Below, in pieces: positions 17,316-27,288 of a DNA stretch of 64,000 bases; positions within the stretch are counted from its first letter, which is position 1; each line of letters starts with the position of its first letter. The stretch spans positions 1,860,001 through 1,924,000 of the forward strand of contig NZ_JAENJG010000001.1 in assembly GCF_016597785.1 (NCBI RefSeq), given 5' to 3'. The notes under the pieces were generated by a model. It was given only the letters and a program-made list of their open reading frames with translations, was not told where the DNA came from and ran no database searches. Source of the DNA: Leucobacter sp. L43 (lineage in GTDB: Bacteria > Actinomycetota > Actinomycetes > Actinomycetales > Microbacteriaceae). Both the position numbers and the translations under genes were made by a program.

Positions 17316-18500
17316 TCAGCCGGAGAGGCAGGCCCCGGTCGATACCGGCGCCGTCGCCGTCTCGAGCGTCGCGAGCACGGGGAGCAGTTCGGCGAGGGTC
17401 ATCGCGTACCCCACACTCGCCCGCTCCGTGTCTCTCGCGAAGACGACTCCCGCGACGCCGCCCTCCTCGGTCAGGAGGGGGCCTCCCGAATTGCCGGGCC
17501 GCACATCGGCCGAGAGCACGTGGATCGAACGCGGCGTCGACGACGTGCCGTAGATGTCCGCGATCGGAGCGTCGCGCGTCGCGAGCACTCCGGCGCCGAC
17601 CGTCGTGAACGGACCGCCGTACGGGTAGCCCTGCACCGCACCTCCGCTTCCCGGCACGAGCGAATCGTCGAGTGGAAGCGGGCTGGCGTCGACGTCCGCA
17701 GCGATCACCGCGATATCGTCGATCGGATCGAAGTACACGACCCGGCCGTCGCGCGCCGGTTCGCCCGGCAGCTCAACGAGCGGGGTCTCGATGCCGGCGA
17801 CGACGTGGGCGTTCGTGACGATGCGATCCTCGGCGACGACGAAGCCGGTGCCCGTCGGCATCGTGCCGCACCCGTATGCGAGACCCGAGATGCGTGCGAC
17901 CGAGGCGGCCGAGGCGGCGAGTGCTGGGTCGTCGGTGTCGATGGTCGCCGCGGGGGTGTCCGTGCTCAAGTCTGAGTCGAGCAGTGCATCGACCGTCGGG
18001 ATCACGGTGTCGCCGAGCACCGCCGCGTGCAAGCGGGCGGCAGCGTCGGTGAGCGGTTTCGGCGTCCACTGCTGCAGCGTGCGCAGCACCGTCGAGGAGG
18101 CGACCGCTGATGAGACGCCCGGCACGCCCGATGCTGTGATGGCGGCGCCGATGAGGGCCACTGCGGTGACCGAGGCGACGAGGCCGAGCGCCCCGCCGAG
18201 CAGGCGTTCGATCGCGCGCAGCTTGAGCCGGTCTGCACCGCGGCGCAGGAAGGAGCCGATCACGGAGCCGAGCCAGGCGCCGAGGGCGAGCAGCAGAATC
18301 GCCGAACCGATCACCGCGGTGCTGCGCCAGCCGTTCTCGGGCAGTTCGCGGGCGATGATCGGCAGCAACCAGGGCGAGACCGCCGCGCCCGCGACGAGAC
18401 CGGCGAGCGCACCGACCACGGAGAAGAATCCCGAACGCACACCGGCGAGCGTGGAGACGATGAGCACGACCACGATGATGATGTCGACGATCGGCAGCAC
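17316..18500 (-). CDS. MarP-family membrane serine protease (CvpA domain plus trypsin-like domain)
   Basis: A 394-residue protein with four N-terminal membrane helices forming a CvpA/colicin V production-like domain (residues about 1-125) and an extracytoplasmic chymotrypsin-like protease. The triad is complete: His232 in TNAHVV, Asp262 in IDDIAVIA and Ser338 in RPGNSGGPL. Cys211 and a cysteine near the C-terminus (GACLSG) could form the disulfide known in mycobacterial MarP. MarP protects against acid and oxidative stress in mycobacteria. The start is GTG 18500. It ends 10 bp from the convergent TetR stop. Confidence 0.92.
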   Translation of the reverse strand: MLPIVDIIIVVVLIVSTLAGVRSGFFSVVGALAGLVAGAAVSPWLLPIIARELPENGWRSTAVIGSAILLLALGAWLGSVIGSFLRRGADRLKLRAIERLLGGALGLVASVTAVALIGAAITASGVPGVSSAVASSTVLRTLQQWTPKPLTDAAARLHAAVLGDTVIPTVDALLDSDLSTDTPAATIDTDDPALAASAASVARISGLAYGCGTMPTGTGFVVAEDRIVTNAHVVAGIETPLVELPGEPARDGRVVYFDPIDDIAVIAADVDASPLPLDDSLVPGSGGAVQGYPYGGPFTTVGAGVLATRDAPIADIYGTSSTPRSIHVLSADVRPGNSGGPLLTEEGGVAGVVFARDTERASVGYAMTLAELLPVLATLETATAPVSTGACLSG

Positions 18501-22997: not shown

Positions 22998-23672
22998 TTA
23001 CTTGGCCGGGGGCATCAGAACGGTGTCGACCAGGTACACGGTCGCGTTCGCGGTCTGGACTCCGCCGCAGATGATGTTCGAGTCGTTGACCATCATCTCG
23101 TCACCCGAGCCGGTCACCTCGAGGTCAGCGCCCTGCACAGTGGTGTGCATGCCTGCGATGTCAGCCGGCTCGATCTGGCCGGGCACCACGTGGTAGGTGA
23201 GGATGCTGCTGAGCAGGTCGCTATCGGTCTTCAGCGTATCGATGGTGCCGGCGTCGATCTTCGCGAAGGCGTCATCCACCGGTGCGAACACGGTGAACTC
23301 GTCACCGTTCAGGGTGTCGACGAGGTCGACGTCAGGGTTCAGCTGACCGCTGACCGCCGAGACGAGCGTCTTCAGCATCGGGTTGTTGGATGCCGCGACT
23401 GCGACCGGATCCTGCGACATGCCCTGGATCGAGCCGTCGCCCTCTGGCACTGCTTCAGCGTATGCCGCGCAGCCGGGGCCGACCAGGTTCGCTGCCGGAT
23501 CCATGGCGTCCGACGACTCCGCCGGCTCCTCCATGGGGGTCTCTTCCATCTGCTCCGTGGTCTGGTCTTCGGCGGCTTCGTCCGACGCTCCCATGGAGCA
23601 GCCGGTGAGCATTGCGGCGCCGACAAGCGTCATTGCGAACGCGGCGCCGAGGGTCTTCTTCTTGGTGAACAT
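22998..23672 (-). CDS. FAS1 (fasciclin) domain lipoprotein, MPT83/MPT70-like
   Basis: A 224-residue exported lipoprotein. The signal peptide ends in the lipobox MLTGC (Cys25), then an acidic Glu/Met/Thr linker leads to one fasciclin domain of about 140 residues ([14 protein letters not shown] to [11 protein letters not shown]). The FAS1 signatures [14 protein letters not shown] and [10 protein letters not shown] are intact. Two cysteines (GPGCAAYAE and NIICGG) could form the disulfide seen in MPT70, a possible DipZ substrate. The start ATG 23672 has a GAGGA site. A SigK-type promoter lies about 50 bp upstream, and dipZ-sigK-rskA is divergent. Confidence 0.92.
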
Positions 23673-23718
23673 GGTTCCTCCTCGAGATGAGATCCGCAGA
23701 TTTCCGCGGCTTGTAAAC

Positions 23719-23747
23719 GTCTTCGGAGCCCTCCCGCGGTCGGATGG
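23719..23747 (-). promoter_or_regulatory. SigK-type promoter of the FAS1 lipoprotein gene
   Basis: On the minus strand CCATCC (23747-23742) is followed after exactly 15 nt by CCGAAGAC (23726-23719). This matches the M. tuberculosis SigK promoter pattern as known (-35 CCATCC, -10 CCGAAT-like). Transcription would begin about 40 nt before the ATG. Confidence 0.72.
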
Positions 23748-23909
23748 GAAATTGATCGAAAAAGTTTTCCGGGTGCCTTCGCGGTGTCGTGTCCGTGCGC
23801 GGGATCGCGGGAGCGTGCGCCCTCGCGCGCGCCCGCGCGCGGACAAGAACTGCTGGCCCGGCATCCGCAGTGGGGCCCGCACGAGACCCGAGCTCTCCTG
23901 GCCTCAGAC

Positions 23910-23937
23910 CCATCCGATCGGCGCTCCGCTCCGAAGT
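23910..23937 (+). promoter_or_regulatory. SigK-type promoter of dipZ-sigK-rskA
   Basis: CCATCC (23910-23915), a 15-nt spacer and CCGAAGT (23931-23937) repeat the pattern found before the divergent FAS1 gene; in both cases the spacer starts GA and ends CT. The leader to the dipZ ATG would be under 20 nt and still holds an AGGAAGG ribosome site, which supports the chosen dipZ start. Confidence 0.75.
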
Positions 23938-23960
23938 ACCTCGCAATAGGAAGGCCTCTC

Positions 23961-25682
23961 ATGGACATCGTGCTTATCGGTCTGCTCGGCGGACTCATCA
24001 CCGGCATCTCGCCGTGCATTCTCCCGGTACTGCCGGTCATCTTCCTGACGGCCGGCGCGCAGCCGGCCGCGCCGGGCAAGGCGCCGGAGGTCATTCCGGC
24101 GAAGCGCAGCCGCCCGTTCTGGATCATCGCGGGGCTCGTGCTGAGCTTCTCCGTGGTGACGCTGCTCGGATCGGTGCTGCTCGGGCTGTTGAACATTCCG
24201 CAGAGCGCGATCCGCTGGGCCGGCGTCGCCGTTCTGCTGATCATCGGCGTCGGCATGCTCTTCCCCGGGTTCGAGCAGCTGCTCGAGAAGCCGTTCCAGC
24301 GGCTGCCCCGCCGGAAGGTCGGCGAGGGAGGCAACGGGTTCGGCATGGGTCTCGCGCTCGGAACGGTATTCGTGCCGTGCGCCGGCCCCGTGCTCGCTGC
24401 GATCATCGTGGCGGGTGCGACCGGCCAGATCGGCATCGAGACCGTCCTGCTCACCTTCTCCTTCGCGATCGGCGTCGCGCTGCCGCTGCTCGTCTTCGCG
24501 CTCGCCGGCAGCAAGGTCGCCCAGCGCATCCGCGGCTTCCGCAAGCGGGAGCGCACGCTGCGCATCGTCGGCGGCGTCGCCCTGATCGCCCTCGCCGTCG
24601 GGCTCGCGTTCAACGTGCCGCAGGCGCTGCAGCGTCTGCTGCCCGATTACACGGCCGGCATCCAGAAGGATCTGGCCGAGAGCGACGCAGGCAAGAGCGC
24701 CCTGAATCTGGGCGGTCTCGTCACCGACGAGAACCGCGATCTCGACAAGTGCGCGAACGACGCCGACGAGCTCGCGTCGTGCGGCAAGGCGCCCTCGATC
24801 AAGGGCATCGACACCTGGTTGAACACGGAGGGCGGCGAGGCGCTCGATCTCGACGAGTTGAAGGGCGAGGTCGTGCTCATCGACTTCTGGGCTTACTCCT
24901 GCATCAACTGCCAGCGCTCGATCCCGCACGTGGTCGCCTGGGATGAGGCGTACGGCGACAAGGGACTGAAGGTGATCGGCGTCCACTCGCCCGAGTACGC
25001 ATTCGAGAAGGAGCAGTCGAACGTCGAGGCCGGCATCAAGGACTTCGGCATCGAGTACGCGGTCGCCATGGACAACAATCTCTCGACCTGGACGAACTAC
25101 CGCAACCGCTACTGGCCCGCCCACTACCTGATCGATGCGGAGGGCACGGTGCGACACATCTCGTTCGGCGAGGGCAACTACGAGACCACCGAGAAGCTCA
25201 TGCGAGAACTGCTCGAGGATGCGAATCCCGACGAGGAGCTGCCCGCTGAGACCAACATCTCGGATGCGACGCCGGAGGTCGGCAGCACCAGCCCTGAGAC
25301 GTTCCTCGGCTCGTCCAAGGACCGCAACTTCGCGGGCCCCGGCGACTACCGGGCCGGTGAGGGCGAGTACGAGTTCCCGAAGGATCAGAAGCAGGACACG
25401 TTCGCGCTCGACGGCAAGTGGACGATCGAGACGCAGTACGTGACTCCGACCGACGATTCGGAGACGAACATCCGCCTCGACTACCGCGGCCAGGAGGTGC
25501 GAGCCGTCATCGCGGGCAGCGGCACGATCGAGGTCGCGGTCGAGGGCGGTGGCACCCGATCCATCGAGATCGACGGAACGCCGCGCTCCTACCGAGTGGT
25601 GGAGGCGGATGATCCGGCCGAGGGCACGCTCGATGTGCAGGTTCCCCAGGGCGTGCAGGTCTACTCGTTCACCTTCGGGTAG
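23961..25682 (+). CDS. dipZ: DipZ: CcdA-like membrane domain fused to a TlpA-type thioredoxin
   Basis: A 573-residue membrane thiol-redox protein. The N-terminal CcdA domain (about residues 1-230) opens with GLITGISPCILPVLPVIF and contains a second cysteine motif FVPCAGPVLAA, the pair that carries electrons across the membrane. An extracytoplasmic thioredoxin domain has the active site SCINCQ (Cys314 and Cys317). The last 140 residues form a beta-rich carbohydrate-module-like domain as in M. tuberculosis DipZ. ATG 23961 is used; a longer frame to 23784 runs through the promoter. It is followed after 66 bp by sigK. Confidence 0.93.
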   Translation: MDIVLIGLLGGLITGISPCILPVLPVIFLTAGAQPAAPGKAPEVIPAKRSRPFWIIAGLVLSFSVVTLLGSVLLGLLNIPQSAIRWAGVAVLLIIGVGMLFPGFEQLLEKPFQRLPRRKVGEGGNGFGMGLALGTVFVPCAGPVLAAIIVAGATGQIGIETVLLTFSFAIGVALPLLVFALAGSKVAQRIRGFRKRERTLRIVGGVALIALAVGLAFNVPQALQRLLPDYTAGIQKDLAESDAGKSALNLGGLVTDENRDLDKCANDADELASCGKAPSIKGIDTWLNTEGGEALDLDELKGEVVLIDFWAYSCINCQRSIPHVVAWDEAYGDKGLKVIGVHSPEYAFEKEQSNVEAGIKDFGIEYAVAMDNNLSTWTNYRNRYWPAHYLIDAEGTVRHISFGEGNYETTEKLMRELLEDANPDEELPAETNISDATPEVGSTSPETFLGSSKDRNFAGPGDYRAGEGEYEFPKDQKQDTFALDGKWTIETQYVTPTDDSETNIRLDYRGQEVRAVIAGSGTIEVAVEGGGTRSIEIDGTPRSYRVVEADDPAEGTLDVQVPQGVQVYSFTFG

Positions 25683-25748
25683 GCCCCGATCGCATAACGG
25701 ATTTGGACTCGAGGCACGAGACGAAGGCAGAGTGGAGGTGAATGAGGC

Positions 25749-26348
25749 ATGCTGAGTGTGATGGTCATTGACGGGGTGGAAATACCGGAGGACGGCGCGA
25801 GCGTCGATCCGGCGGATAGGGCGCTCGCACGCGCCGCGGTGGGAGACCAGCGCGCCTTCGCCGAGCTGTACGATCTGCTCTCGGCCCGAGTGTTCGGTCT
25901 GATCCTCAGGGTCCTGGTCGACCGGTCGCAGAGCGAGGAGGTACTGCAGGAGGTCTTCCTCGAAGCGTGGCAGACCGCGGATTCGTTCAATCCGGAACGG
26001 GGCCGGGCTCGCACGTGGCTCCTCACGATCGCCCACCGGCGAGCGGTGGATCGTGTCCGCGCCTCGCAGGCGTCCCGTCGCAGGGACCTCGCCGCCGGTA
26101 CGCGCGACTTGGCGGAAGCGCAGCCGGCAGTCGATGAGGAGGTGGAGCTCATGATCGACGGCACGCGTGCCGTGCACGGCCTCAGCGAACTCCCCGAGCC
26201 TCAGCGCCGCGCGATCGTGCTCGCCTACTTCGGCGGGTACAGCCAGAGCGAGATCGCCGTGCTCCTCGGAGCGCCGCTCGGCACCATCAAATCAAGAATT
26301 CGAGACGGTTTGACCCGTCTCAGGAAAGAAATGGAGGCGACGCGATGA
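25749..26348 (+). CDS. sigK: Extracytoplasmic-function sigma factor SigK
   Basis: A 199-residue ECF sigma factor. Region 2 is present (FAELYDLLSARVFGLILRVLVDRSQSEEVLQEVFLEAW, with the WLLTIAHRRAVDRVR end) and region 4 has a clear helix-turn-helix (IVLAYFGGYSQSEIAVLLGAPLGTIKSRIRDGLTRLR). The sequence and the anti-sigma partner place it in the SigK group. Its stop overlaps the rskA start by four bases. No own SigK-type promoter is seen in the 66 bp before it, so it is probably read through from the dipZ promoter, giving positive feedback. Confidence 0.93.
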   Translation: MLSVMVIDGVEIPEDGASVDPADRALARAAVGDQRAFAELYDLLSARVFGLILRVLVDRSQSEEVLQEVFLEAWQTADSFNPERGRARTWLLTIAHRRAVDRVRASQASRRRDLAAGTRDLAEAQPAVDEEVELMIDGTRAVHGLSELPEPQRRAIVLAYFGGYSQSEIAVLLGAPLGTIKSRIRDGLTRLRKEMEATR

Positions 26349-27160
26349 ACGAGCAACAGTTCCGCGAGCTCTCCGCTGCCCGCGCCCTGCATGCGCTCTC
26401 CCCGGAAGAGGAGCAGAGCTTCTCGGAGGCGCTGGCGGCTCATCCAGAATGGCTCGAGGTCGTCGACGAGGATCGCGAGACGGTCGCGGCCATCGCCGTT
26501 TCGACGCCCGAGGTCGCGCCGCCCGCTGGAGCCCGCGCCGCGATCCTCGATCTGATCGCGCGCTCGCCGCAGTTCGAGGCCGGTCACGAGCCCGAACCCC
26601 GCGCGGAGGCGACTCCGACGCCTCGACCGACGCCCGCCCGCCCGGGCGATCTGGTGCCGGAGCTGATCGAGGAGCCGGATGATCCGGAGCTGGCGTTCAA
26701 GCGTTCGCGCCGCAAGGCGGCCTGGTTCGGGCTTGCGGCGTCGGTCGCGGTGCTGCTCGCGATCGCGCTCGCGCTGCCGATGGGTGGAATCGTGGCCCCG
26801 CAGGATCCCGTTTCGGTCGCCCTGCAGCAGGTCGAGTCGGCGCCCGACTCGCAGTCGACGACGGTCAGCGTCGGATCGGCGGAAGCGACGCTGCACTGGT
26901 CGGACTCCACGCAGCAGGCCGTGTTCATGACGGACGGCATGGAGGCGGCGCCCGAGAATCACGATTACGAGGTGTGGCTCGTACGCGGCGATCAGCCCAT
27001 CTCGCTCGGCGTCATGCATGCCGACGCGAACGGCGGCGCTGCGGTGCTCGCCGAGGGGTTCACGCCCGGCGATGCGCTCGCGGTGACGGTCGAGGATCGC
27101 GGCGGGTCGCCCACGGGCGCCCCGACCACCGATCCGATCGTGGTGGTCGCTTCGGCCTGA
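26345..27160 (+). CDS. rskA: Anti-sigma-K factor RskA
   Basis: A 271-residue single-pass membrane anti-sigma factor. The cytosolic N-terminus (FRELSAARALHALSPEEEQSF) is the sigma-binding part, with a Pro-rich linker, one transmembrane helix at about 126-147 (AAWFGLAASVAVLLAIALAL) and a 120-residue extracytoplasmic RskA domain ending in PTTDPIVVVASA. The GxxHxE-like wording AAPENHDYEVWLVRGDQPISLG is typical of that domain. RskA normally holds SigK inactive until cut by membrane proteolysis. Coupled to sigK by ATGA overlap. Confidence 0.92.
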   Translation: MNEQQFRELSAARALHALSPEEEQSFSEALAAHPEWLEVVDEDRETVAAIAVSTPEVAPPAGARAAILDLIARSPQFEAGHEPEPRAEATPTPRPTPARPGDLVPELIEEPDDPELAFKRSRRKAAWFGLAASVAVLLAIALALPMGGIVAPQDPVSVALQQVESAPDSQSTTVSVGSAEATLHWSDSTQQAVFMTDGMEAAPENHDYEVWLVRGDQPISLGVMHADANGGAAVLAEGFTPGDALAVTVEDRGGSPTGAPTTDPIVVVASA

Positions 27161-27191: not shown

Positions 27192-27247
27192 CGAAAGCGC
27201 GTTTCGTGCGCTCTCCTCACAGGAACAGAGCACGAAACGCGCTTTCG
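27192..27247. terminator. 18-bp perfect stem-loop after rskA
   Basis: CGAAAGCGCGTTTCGTGC (27192-27209) pairs exactly with GCACGAAACGCGCTTTCG (27230-27247) across a 20-nt loop. It lies 30 bp after the rskA stop, between convergent genes, and should end the dipZ-sigK-rskA transcript. Confidence 0.75.
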
Positions 27248-27252
27248 TCGCA

Positions 27253-27288
27253 GAAGTCCCCGCGATCCACTCGGATCGCGGGGACTTC
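27253..27288. terminator. Second, tighter stem-loop (16-bp stem, 4-nt loop)
   Basis: GAAGTCCCCGCGATCC (27253-27268) and GGATCGCGGGGACTTC (27273-27288) form a perfect stem with an ACTC loop, only five bases after the first hairpin and 8 bp from the stop of the convergent CBS gene. It probably serves the minus-strand operon. Confidence 0.75.

Follow-up and report, generated by a model that had tools for sequence, protein, structure and literature searches.

In the window, i.e. the whole 64,000-nucleotide stretch of Leucobacter sp. L43 DNA that was analysed, a gene for a FAS1-domain lipoprotein is read from the minus strand, and dipZ, sigK and rskA are read from the plus strand, divergent from it across a gap of 288 bases. 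The locus is flanked by genes for a zinc-type dehydrogenase and a CNNM/CBS protein. Its features are:

22998..23672, minus strand: FAS1 lipoprotein of the MPT70/83 type, 224 aa (PF02469, 1nyo match, lipobox Cys25)
23722..23747, minus strand: putative SigK-type site for FAS1, CCATCC-N16-CGAA, 75 bases upstream of the start codon
23910..23935, plus strand: putative SigK-type site for dipZ-sigK-rskA, CCATCC-N16-CGAA, 51 bases upstream of the dipZ start
23961..25682, plus strand: DipZ, 573 aa (DsbD_TM, thioredoxin-like, PF17991; CINC)
25749..26348, plus strand: SigK, an ECF sigma factor of the ECF19 type, 199 aa, zero cysteines (NCBIfam SigK model, 4nqw match)
26345..27160, plus strand: RskA anti-sigma factor, 271 aa, zero cysteines (PF10099, NF052375, AlphaFold2 model)
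27192-27247 and 27253-27288: two inverted repeats downstream of rskA, probably terminators

Pfam domains are recognised in all four proteins, and an NCBIfam cut-off is passed by SigK and RskA only. The first-pass annotation had read SigK, RskA, DipZ and a FAS1 lipoprotein as gathered in one locus, and all four are indeed found there by family models and/or solved relatives.

The FAS1 protein matches PF02469 at 99.5 bits, and its nearest solved chain is 1nyo (MPT70; E 2.2e-64), which, like the DipZ chains 5cyy and 2hyx, we take to be from M. tuberculosis. Its likely start is at 23672, preceded by GAGGAGG; the listed open reading frame of 294 aa begins farther upstream. The lipobox, LTGC with Cys25, was read by eye, and two further cysteines are present, namely Cys68 and Cys202. 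A single FAS1 domain, the cysteine pair, an export signal and a grouping in the FAS1 tree with MPT70/83-like genes from f10, a mycobacteria-like group, all agree with an MPT70/MPT83 type; MPB83 is described as a lipoprotein in passages of PMC10540498.

DipZ combines in one chain a CcdA-like membrane part (Cys19, Cys140), a thioredoxin-like part with the CxxC motif CINC (Cys314/317) and a C-terminal PF17991 domain. Residues 245-573 match the solved DipZ chains 5cyy and 2hyx (E about 1e-106); no NCBIfam model is matched above any cut-off. When the genome was searched with PF02683 for a second thiol system, only DipZ scored above the cut-off, with one weak match at C1:1409928.

The sigma factor passes the NCBIfam SigK model narrowly (228.6 bits against a cut-off of 226; next model, 125.5); in G014 and G096, which are also from the genus, the score stays just under this cut-off. 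The nearest solved chain, 4nqw (E 1.7e-40), is the SigK structure of M. tuberculosis (organism according to PMC7406223). In the SigK tree, which had been named beforehand as a check, the protein lies inside the SigK group, whose 77 rows stand apart from 16 ECF paralogues with support of 87/94 and with long-branch warnings; these paralogues come from three genomes and represent some ECF groups only. The proposed identity of the 25749-26348 product as SigK is therefore supported at the level of sequence.

The start of rskA (26345) overlaps the end of sigK (26348). Its product carries the RskA_C domain (PF10099, 80.5 bits) and scores above the cut-off of NF052375; no solved relative was found by sequence. 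The AlphaFold2 model (mean pLDDT 84.3, pTM 0.49) has four N-terminal helices, predicted to bind the sigma factor, a loose linker, one long helix (122-149) that is probably the membrane helix, and an outer beta domain. A search for a known fold of RskA gave no match with an E-value of 0.001 or lower. In the stretch that separates rskA from the CNNM/CBS gene, both inverted repeats are strong, and the arm of the first (27192-27247) has no other copy within the window.

Linkage of the four genes in Microbacteriaceae and beyond

From 381 confirmed FAS1 relatives in the named genome collection, 80 related loci were obtained, mostly from Leucobacter or Microbacterium. The closest named locus is that of Leucobacter chromiiresistens, with a FAS1 protein 95% identical. 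dipZ is present in 57 of the 80 loci and sigK in 55 of these 57; sigK was not found in L030, at a contig end, or in L072. With the window included (81 loci), FAS1 is divergent from dipZ over less than 700 bases in 56 and directly from sigK in 22, and the other three are L005, which carries a 6-kb insert, L028, in which dipZ is in two frames, and L052, which has no dipZ.

Two of the 80 loci, L036 and L038 (Microbacterium stercoris), are one locus counted twice: a 20.7-kb stretch with the whole locus has two copies in the same assembly, which differ by one mismatch. This doubling may be a recent duplication or an assembly artefact.

Among 150 Microbacteriaceae genomes, 44 have a FAS1 gene of the MPT type (of the 64 FAS1 matches, 20 belong to other types and were not counted), and each of these genomes also has a SigK-model match at E 1e-44. 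FAS1 and dipZ are both found in 27 of the 150 genomes, and in every one of the 27 dipZ adjoins FAS1 and is divergent from it; one genome, G057, has a second dipZ elsewhere. Four genomes have dipZ without an MPT-type FAS1. The association of dipZ with FAS1 has a Fisher p of 2.8e-14, kinship being ignored in this figure. sigK lies within 9 kb of FAS1 in 33 of the 44 genomes, on the FAS1 strand in six of these, and 11 have no SigK match in that range. Both dipZ and sigK are near FAS1 in 24 genomes, of which 19 (19/44) have the layout of the window, and three genomes resemble M. tuberculosis in having dipZ next to FAS1 but sigK at another place. Thus, given the 27/27 adjacency and the incomplete linkage of sigK, the steady unit is FAS1 plus dipZ, with sigK-rskA usually linked. 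The search for the four-gene neighbourhood that the first-pass annotation had asked for bears the grouping out in nearly all dipZ-bearing related loci and in part of the genomes with an MPT-type FAS1.

FAS1 domains and sigma factors are common families, and one could ask whether their grouping here is due to chance or to an annotation artefact. We regard this as next to impossible: the 3.15-Mb genome has one FAS1 match, one SigK-model match (E 1e-44) and one PF17991 match, the layout is kept in dozens of loci, and the paired sites described below are conserved.

In other families, 19 of 28 fetched loci with FAS1 and sigK, hand-chosen and many of them for the closeness of the two matches, have a collinear FAS1-sigK-rskA order without dipZ. 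The pairwise linkages also occur separately elsewhere, namely: FAS1-dipZ in L115 and L117; dipZ-sigK-rskA in L118, L120 and L121; and FAS1-sigK-rskA in the 19 loci just mentioned.

SigK-type sites in the divergent gap

Mycobacterial SigK sites have the elements CCATCC and CGAA. This motif was tested on the 81 gaps, each with 60 bases of the facing gene added. In the window, an exact CCATCC-N16-CGAA is found on both sides of the FAS1/dipZ gap, and across the 81 gaps the two elements occur at a spacing of 16 only, with none at the other spacings from 8 to 24. The strict site is present on the FAS1 side in 62 of the 81 loci and on the divergent side in 10, the window included; L030 and L072 are among these 10, with the site at other distances. 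With A, C or G allowed at position 2 (the relaxed form, C[ACG]ATCC-N16-CGAA), a site lies upstream of FAS1 in 80 of the 81 loci, the window included and L052 being the exception; after dinucleotide shuffling, the number averages 0.37 and never exceeds 2. The relaxed site faces dipZ in 48 of 56 loci (54 when spacings of 15-17 are allowed), and in the loci without dipZ it faces sigK in 6 of 22 (11 at spacings of 15-17). Leucobacter sites are mostly at -74 to -79 before FAS1 (-103 in L022) and at -49 to -53 before dipZ.

Five strict sites occur in the genome, with none for the backward-read control, and only the two in the FAS1/dipZ gap are non-coding as judged from open frames. Since the strict pattern is found in 120 of the 150 Microbacteriaceae genomes, frequently in more than one copy and even where the locus is absent, the count of five is not telling in itself. 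Among further loci from across the class, a site lies upstream of 28 of 44 FAS1 genes (11/11 in Microbacteriaceae, 17/33 outside), with a background of 0.020 per 330 bases; the 16 FAS1 genes without a site include all those fetched from groups f21, f23 and f24. No site for dipZ was found in the mycobacteria-like dipZ-sigK-rskA loci L118, L120 and L121. Where FAS1 is not linked to sigK in Microbacteriaceae, 7 of 11 genes have the site, with L192 and L202 at spacings of 15 and 17, and four have none.

In L005 (Leucobacter musarum), a 6-kb insert at about 3.9-9.9 kb, with rhamnosidase-like and sodium/calcium-exchanger-like genes, separates FAS1 from dipZ. FAS1 and the displaced dipZ each keep their own intact SigK-type site, and the locus offers a natural test of two separate promoters.

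The pairing of the sites suggests that one switch runs all four genes. The two sides differ in quality: in the window, the dipZ-side site scores 14.2 vs. 38.9 for the FAS1-side site, with a matrix that was built from FAS1-side sites and hence favours that side, and in Microbacterium the dipZ-side site is mostly CAATCC. These differences would fit a scheme in which SigK controlled FAS1 while dipZ-sigK-rskA were transcribed mainly from another promoter, to which we assign a real but minor chance, as 10 of the 81 loci do have the strict form on their divergent side, L005 has it beside the displaced dipZ, and the relaxed form faces dipZ in most loci that have the gene.

Further SigK targets were also sought. 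In the own genome, the relaxed pattern occurs in 7 places vs. 1 for the backward control; besides the two in the gap, these fall within other open frames or at their margins, and they were rejected as targets. Nor do we claim a wider regulon in other genera: for 10 places picked by eye among the matches listed, the frames that follow show no likeness to one another, except for one pair. In this pair (L215 and L216, from genomes G035 and G110 of one genus), a SigK-like site lies about 190 bases upstream of the same small frame, helix-turn-helix-like by eye, possibly by chance.

Cysteines and gene histories

The cysteine pair of M. tuberculosis SigK is described as redox-sensitive (PMC7509140, section 3). 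At the corresponding positions 133 and 183, located through their spacing of 50, SigK of the window has Ala and Glu; both cysteines are found in 0 of 78 SigK proteins of the related loci and the window, and in 32 of 56 other SigK proteins. According to section 11 of PMC7509140, the pair is present in 94% of ECF18 and 56% of ECF19, and 85% of SigK proteins without it still have an RskA. Because the pair is not universal, it is a trait rather than a criterion of membership. Section 12 of the same source associates the pair with a full-length RskA; Microbacteriaceae are an exception to this link, consistent with that source's own figures. In this locus, a SigK that by nature contains no cysteine is paired with an RskA of full length, and therefore the SigK disulfide switch is not required in every SigK-RskA pair. 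Pairs without the disulfide cysteines were already counted in PMC7509140, outside the present locus setting.

Within this set of four, cysteines are confined to FAS1 and DipZ. Together with the adjacency of dipZ and FAS1 in all 27 Microbacteriaceae genomes having both, this would suit a redox module built on oxidation or reduction of the FAS1 cysteine pair by DipZ, the compact locus being ancestral to the mycobacterial system. The pair is, however, invariant irrespective of dipZ: Cys68 and Cys202 are kept in 58/58 loci with dipZ, 23/23 without it and 42/42 further loci, and also in all 10 fetched loci (L195-L203, L208) from Microbacteriaceae genomes without a PF17991 match. MPT70 has a FAS1 cysteine pair as well. 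The pair is thus independent of the presence of DipZ. The first-pass annotation had DipZ acting on two cysteines of the lipoprotein; the cysteines exist, but the link to DipZ is weakened.

The trees bear on the ancestral part of the same reading. The MPT type of FAS1 forms one clade (100/100), within which Microbacteriaceae plus f8 joins the mycobacteria-like group f10 (100/97); the alternative with f24 nearer to Microbacteriaceae than f10 is not rejected (p-AU 0.388). In the DipZ tree, the sister group of Microbacteriaceae plus f8 consists of f10 rows, six out of seven (100/98), and the seventh, L123, is placed with f22. The sister relationship of FAS1 and DipZ to f10 speaks for this reading, as does the separate occurrence of each pairwise linkage elsewhere, but SigK does not follow that relationship. 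When the outgroups and two long rows are left out, 33 Microbacteriaceae SigK rows (related loci plus f1) form one clade (99/97); with the outgroup, Microbacteriaceae come out as three open basal branches within SigK. A grouping of Microbacteriaceae SigK with the core of f10 is rejected at a p-AU of 0.027, the tested grouping having been named after the trees had been inspected. The output genes (FAS1 and dipZ) and the sigma factor appear to have partly different histories, a conclusion that is only moderate because of long branches and short proteins. This mismatch, and the collinear order without dipZ being the commonest among the hand-chosen loci of other families, leave the compact ancestral form claimed by the first-pass annotation without support, and the redox module as a whole seems to us improbable. 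That thiol sensing of the SigK system has moved outward in Microbacteriaceae, with DipZ and FAS1, outside the membrane, as the redox-responsive part feeding back on RskA, is a still more remote idea.

Proposed mechanism and known SigK systems

With the gene identities, the paired sites, their conservation and the absence of cysteines from SigK and RskA as observed, we consider it likely that this is a self-contained SigK-RskA envelope-response locus with two divergent SigK promoters. As to its regulation, the passage of the signal and the direction of DipZ, we infer the following. RskA would sit in the membrane with its N-terminal helices holding SigK, until it is altered or cleaved in response to a signal received by the outer beta domain. 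SigK would then be freed or activated, either through Rip1-like proteolysis or in the activator mode set out in PMC7509140, and would join RNA polymerase, so that the two divergent promoters in the 288-base gap fire. The FAS1-side promoter would yield the surface FAS1 lipoprotein, and the dipZ-side promoter would yield DipZ plus more SigK and RskA as feedback. DipZ, in turn, may shuttle reducing equivalents through the membrane for use by exported proteins with thiols. FAS1 and dipZ would form the steady output pair, with sigK-rskA usually linked to it and at times elsewhere. In M. tuberculosis, SigK is reported to raise its own expression and Rip1 to cut RskA (PMC10449499; PMC7509140, section 3). 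RskA is reported to be lower under ultraviolet light in another actinobacterium (PMC8965627), which is at most a hint at the signal. Of the SigK-controlled redox/secretion module outside mycobacteria that had been proposed at the outset, the presence outside mycobacteria stands and common control is suggested by the paired sites; the thiol link between DipZ and FAS1 is weakened.

The four-gene locus extends the known SigK system rather than being a new system. In passages of PMC10540498, SigK of M. bovis and M. tuberculosis is described as controlling mpb83-dipZ-mpb70. The same four protein families are involved there, with FAS1 and dipZ adjacent, but in two loci (sigK-rskA and mpb83-dipZ-mpb70) and with two FAS1 genes, whereas the window has one locus with one FAS1 gene divergent from dipZ. 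An mpt83-sigK-rskA cassette with a SigK site, found also outside mycobacteria and in Gram-negatives, is described in section 12 of PMC7509140 (citing Veyrier 2008). It likewise brings together an MPT83-type FAS1 gene, sigK, rskA and a SigK site; in contrast to its collinear order, FAS1 in the window is divergent, dipZ is interposed between FAS1 and sigK, two sites face each other, and SigK is without Cys133/Cys183 though RskA is full length. The island PiCp2 of Corynebacterium pseudotuberculosis, as described in PMC3078919, holds cskE, sigK and dipZ together and so resembles the locus in having dipZ with sigK and an anti-sigma gene, but no FAS1 is among the genes listed for it there.

Many Leucobacter and Microbacterium species are environmental. 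The presence of dipZ in the loci of these genera speaks against the statement, made in PMC3078919 with reference to 2008 work, that full-length dipZ is exclusive to pathogens among Actinobacteria. In the open-access literature, searched by titles, abstracts and passages, no paper was found on the four-gene locus in Leucobacter or Microbacterium, and fasciclin is not mentioned in the accessible passages of a paper on Leifsonia RskA (PMC6323826). Within the open literature searched, the new elements are the joint presence, in Leucobacter and Microbacterium, of all four genes and of SigK-type sites that face each other, the 27/27 linkage of FAS1 and dipZ, and the test separating the FAS1 cysteines from dipZ. 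With this locus, the RskA signal and the roles of FAS1 and DipZ could be sought in non-tuberculous species that have the SigK system in one place.

Elsewhere in the window (17316-18500, minus strand), a CvpA-like (Colicin_V) membrane domain and a trypsin-like protease are fused in one protein, which presumably resembles mycobacterial MarP.
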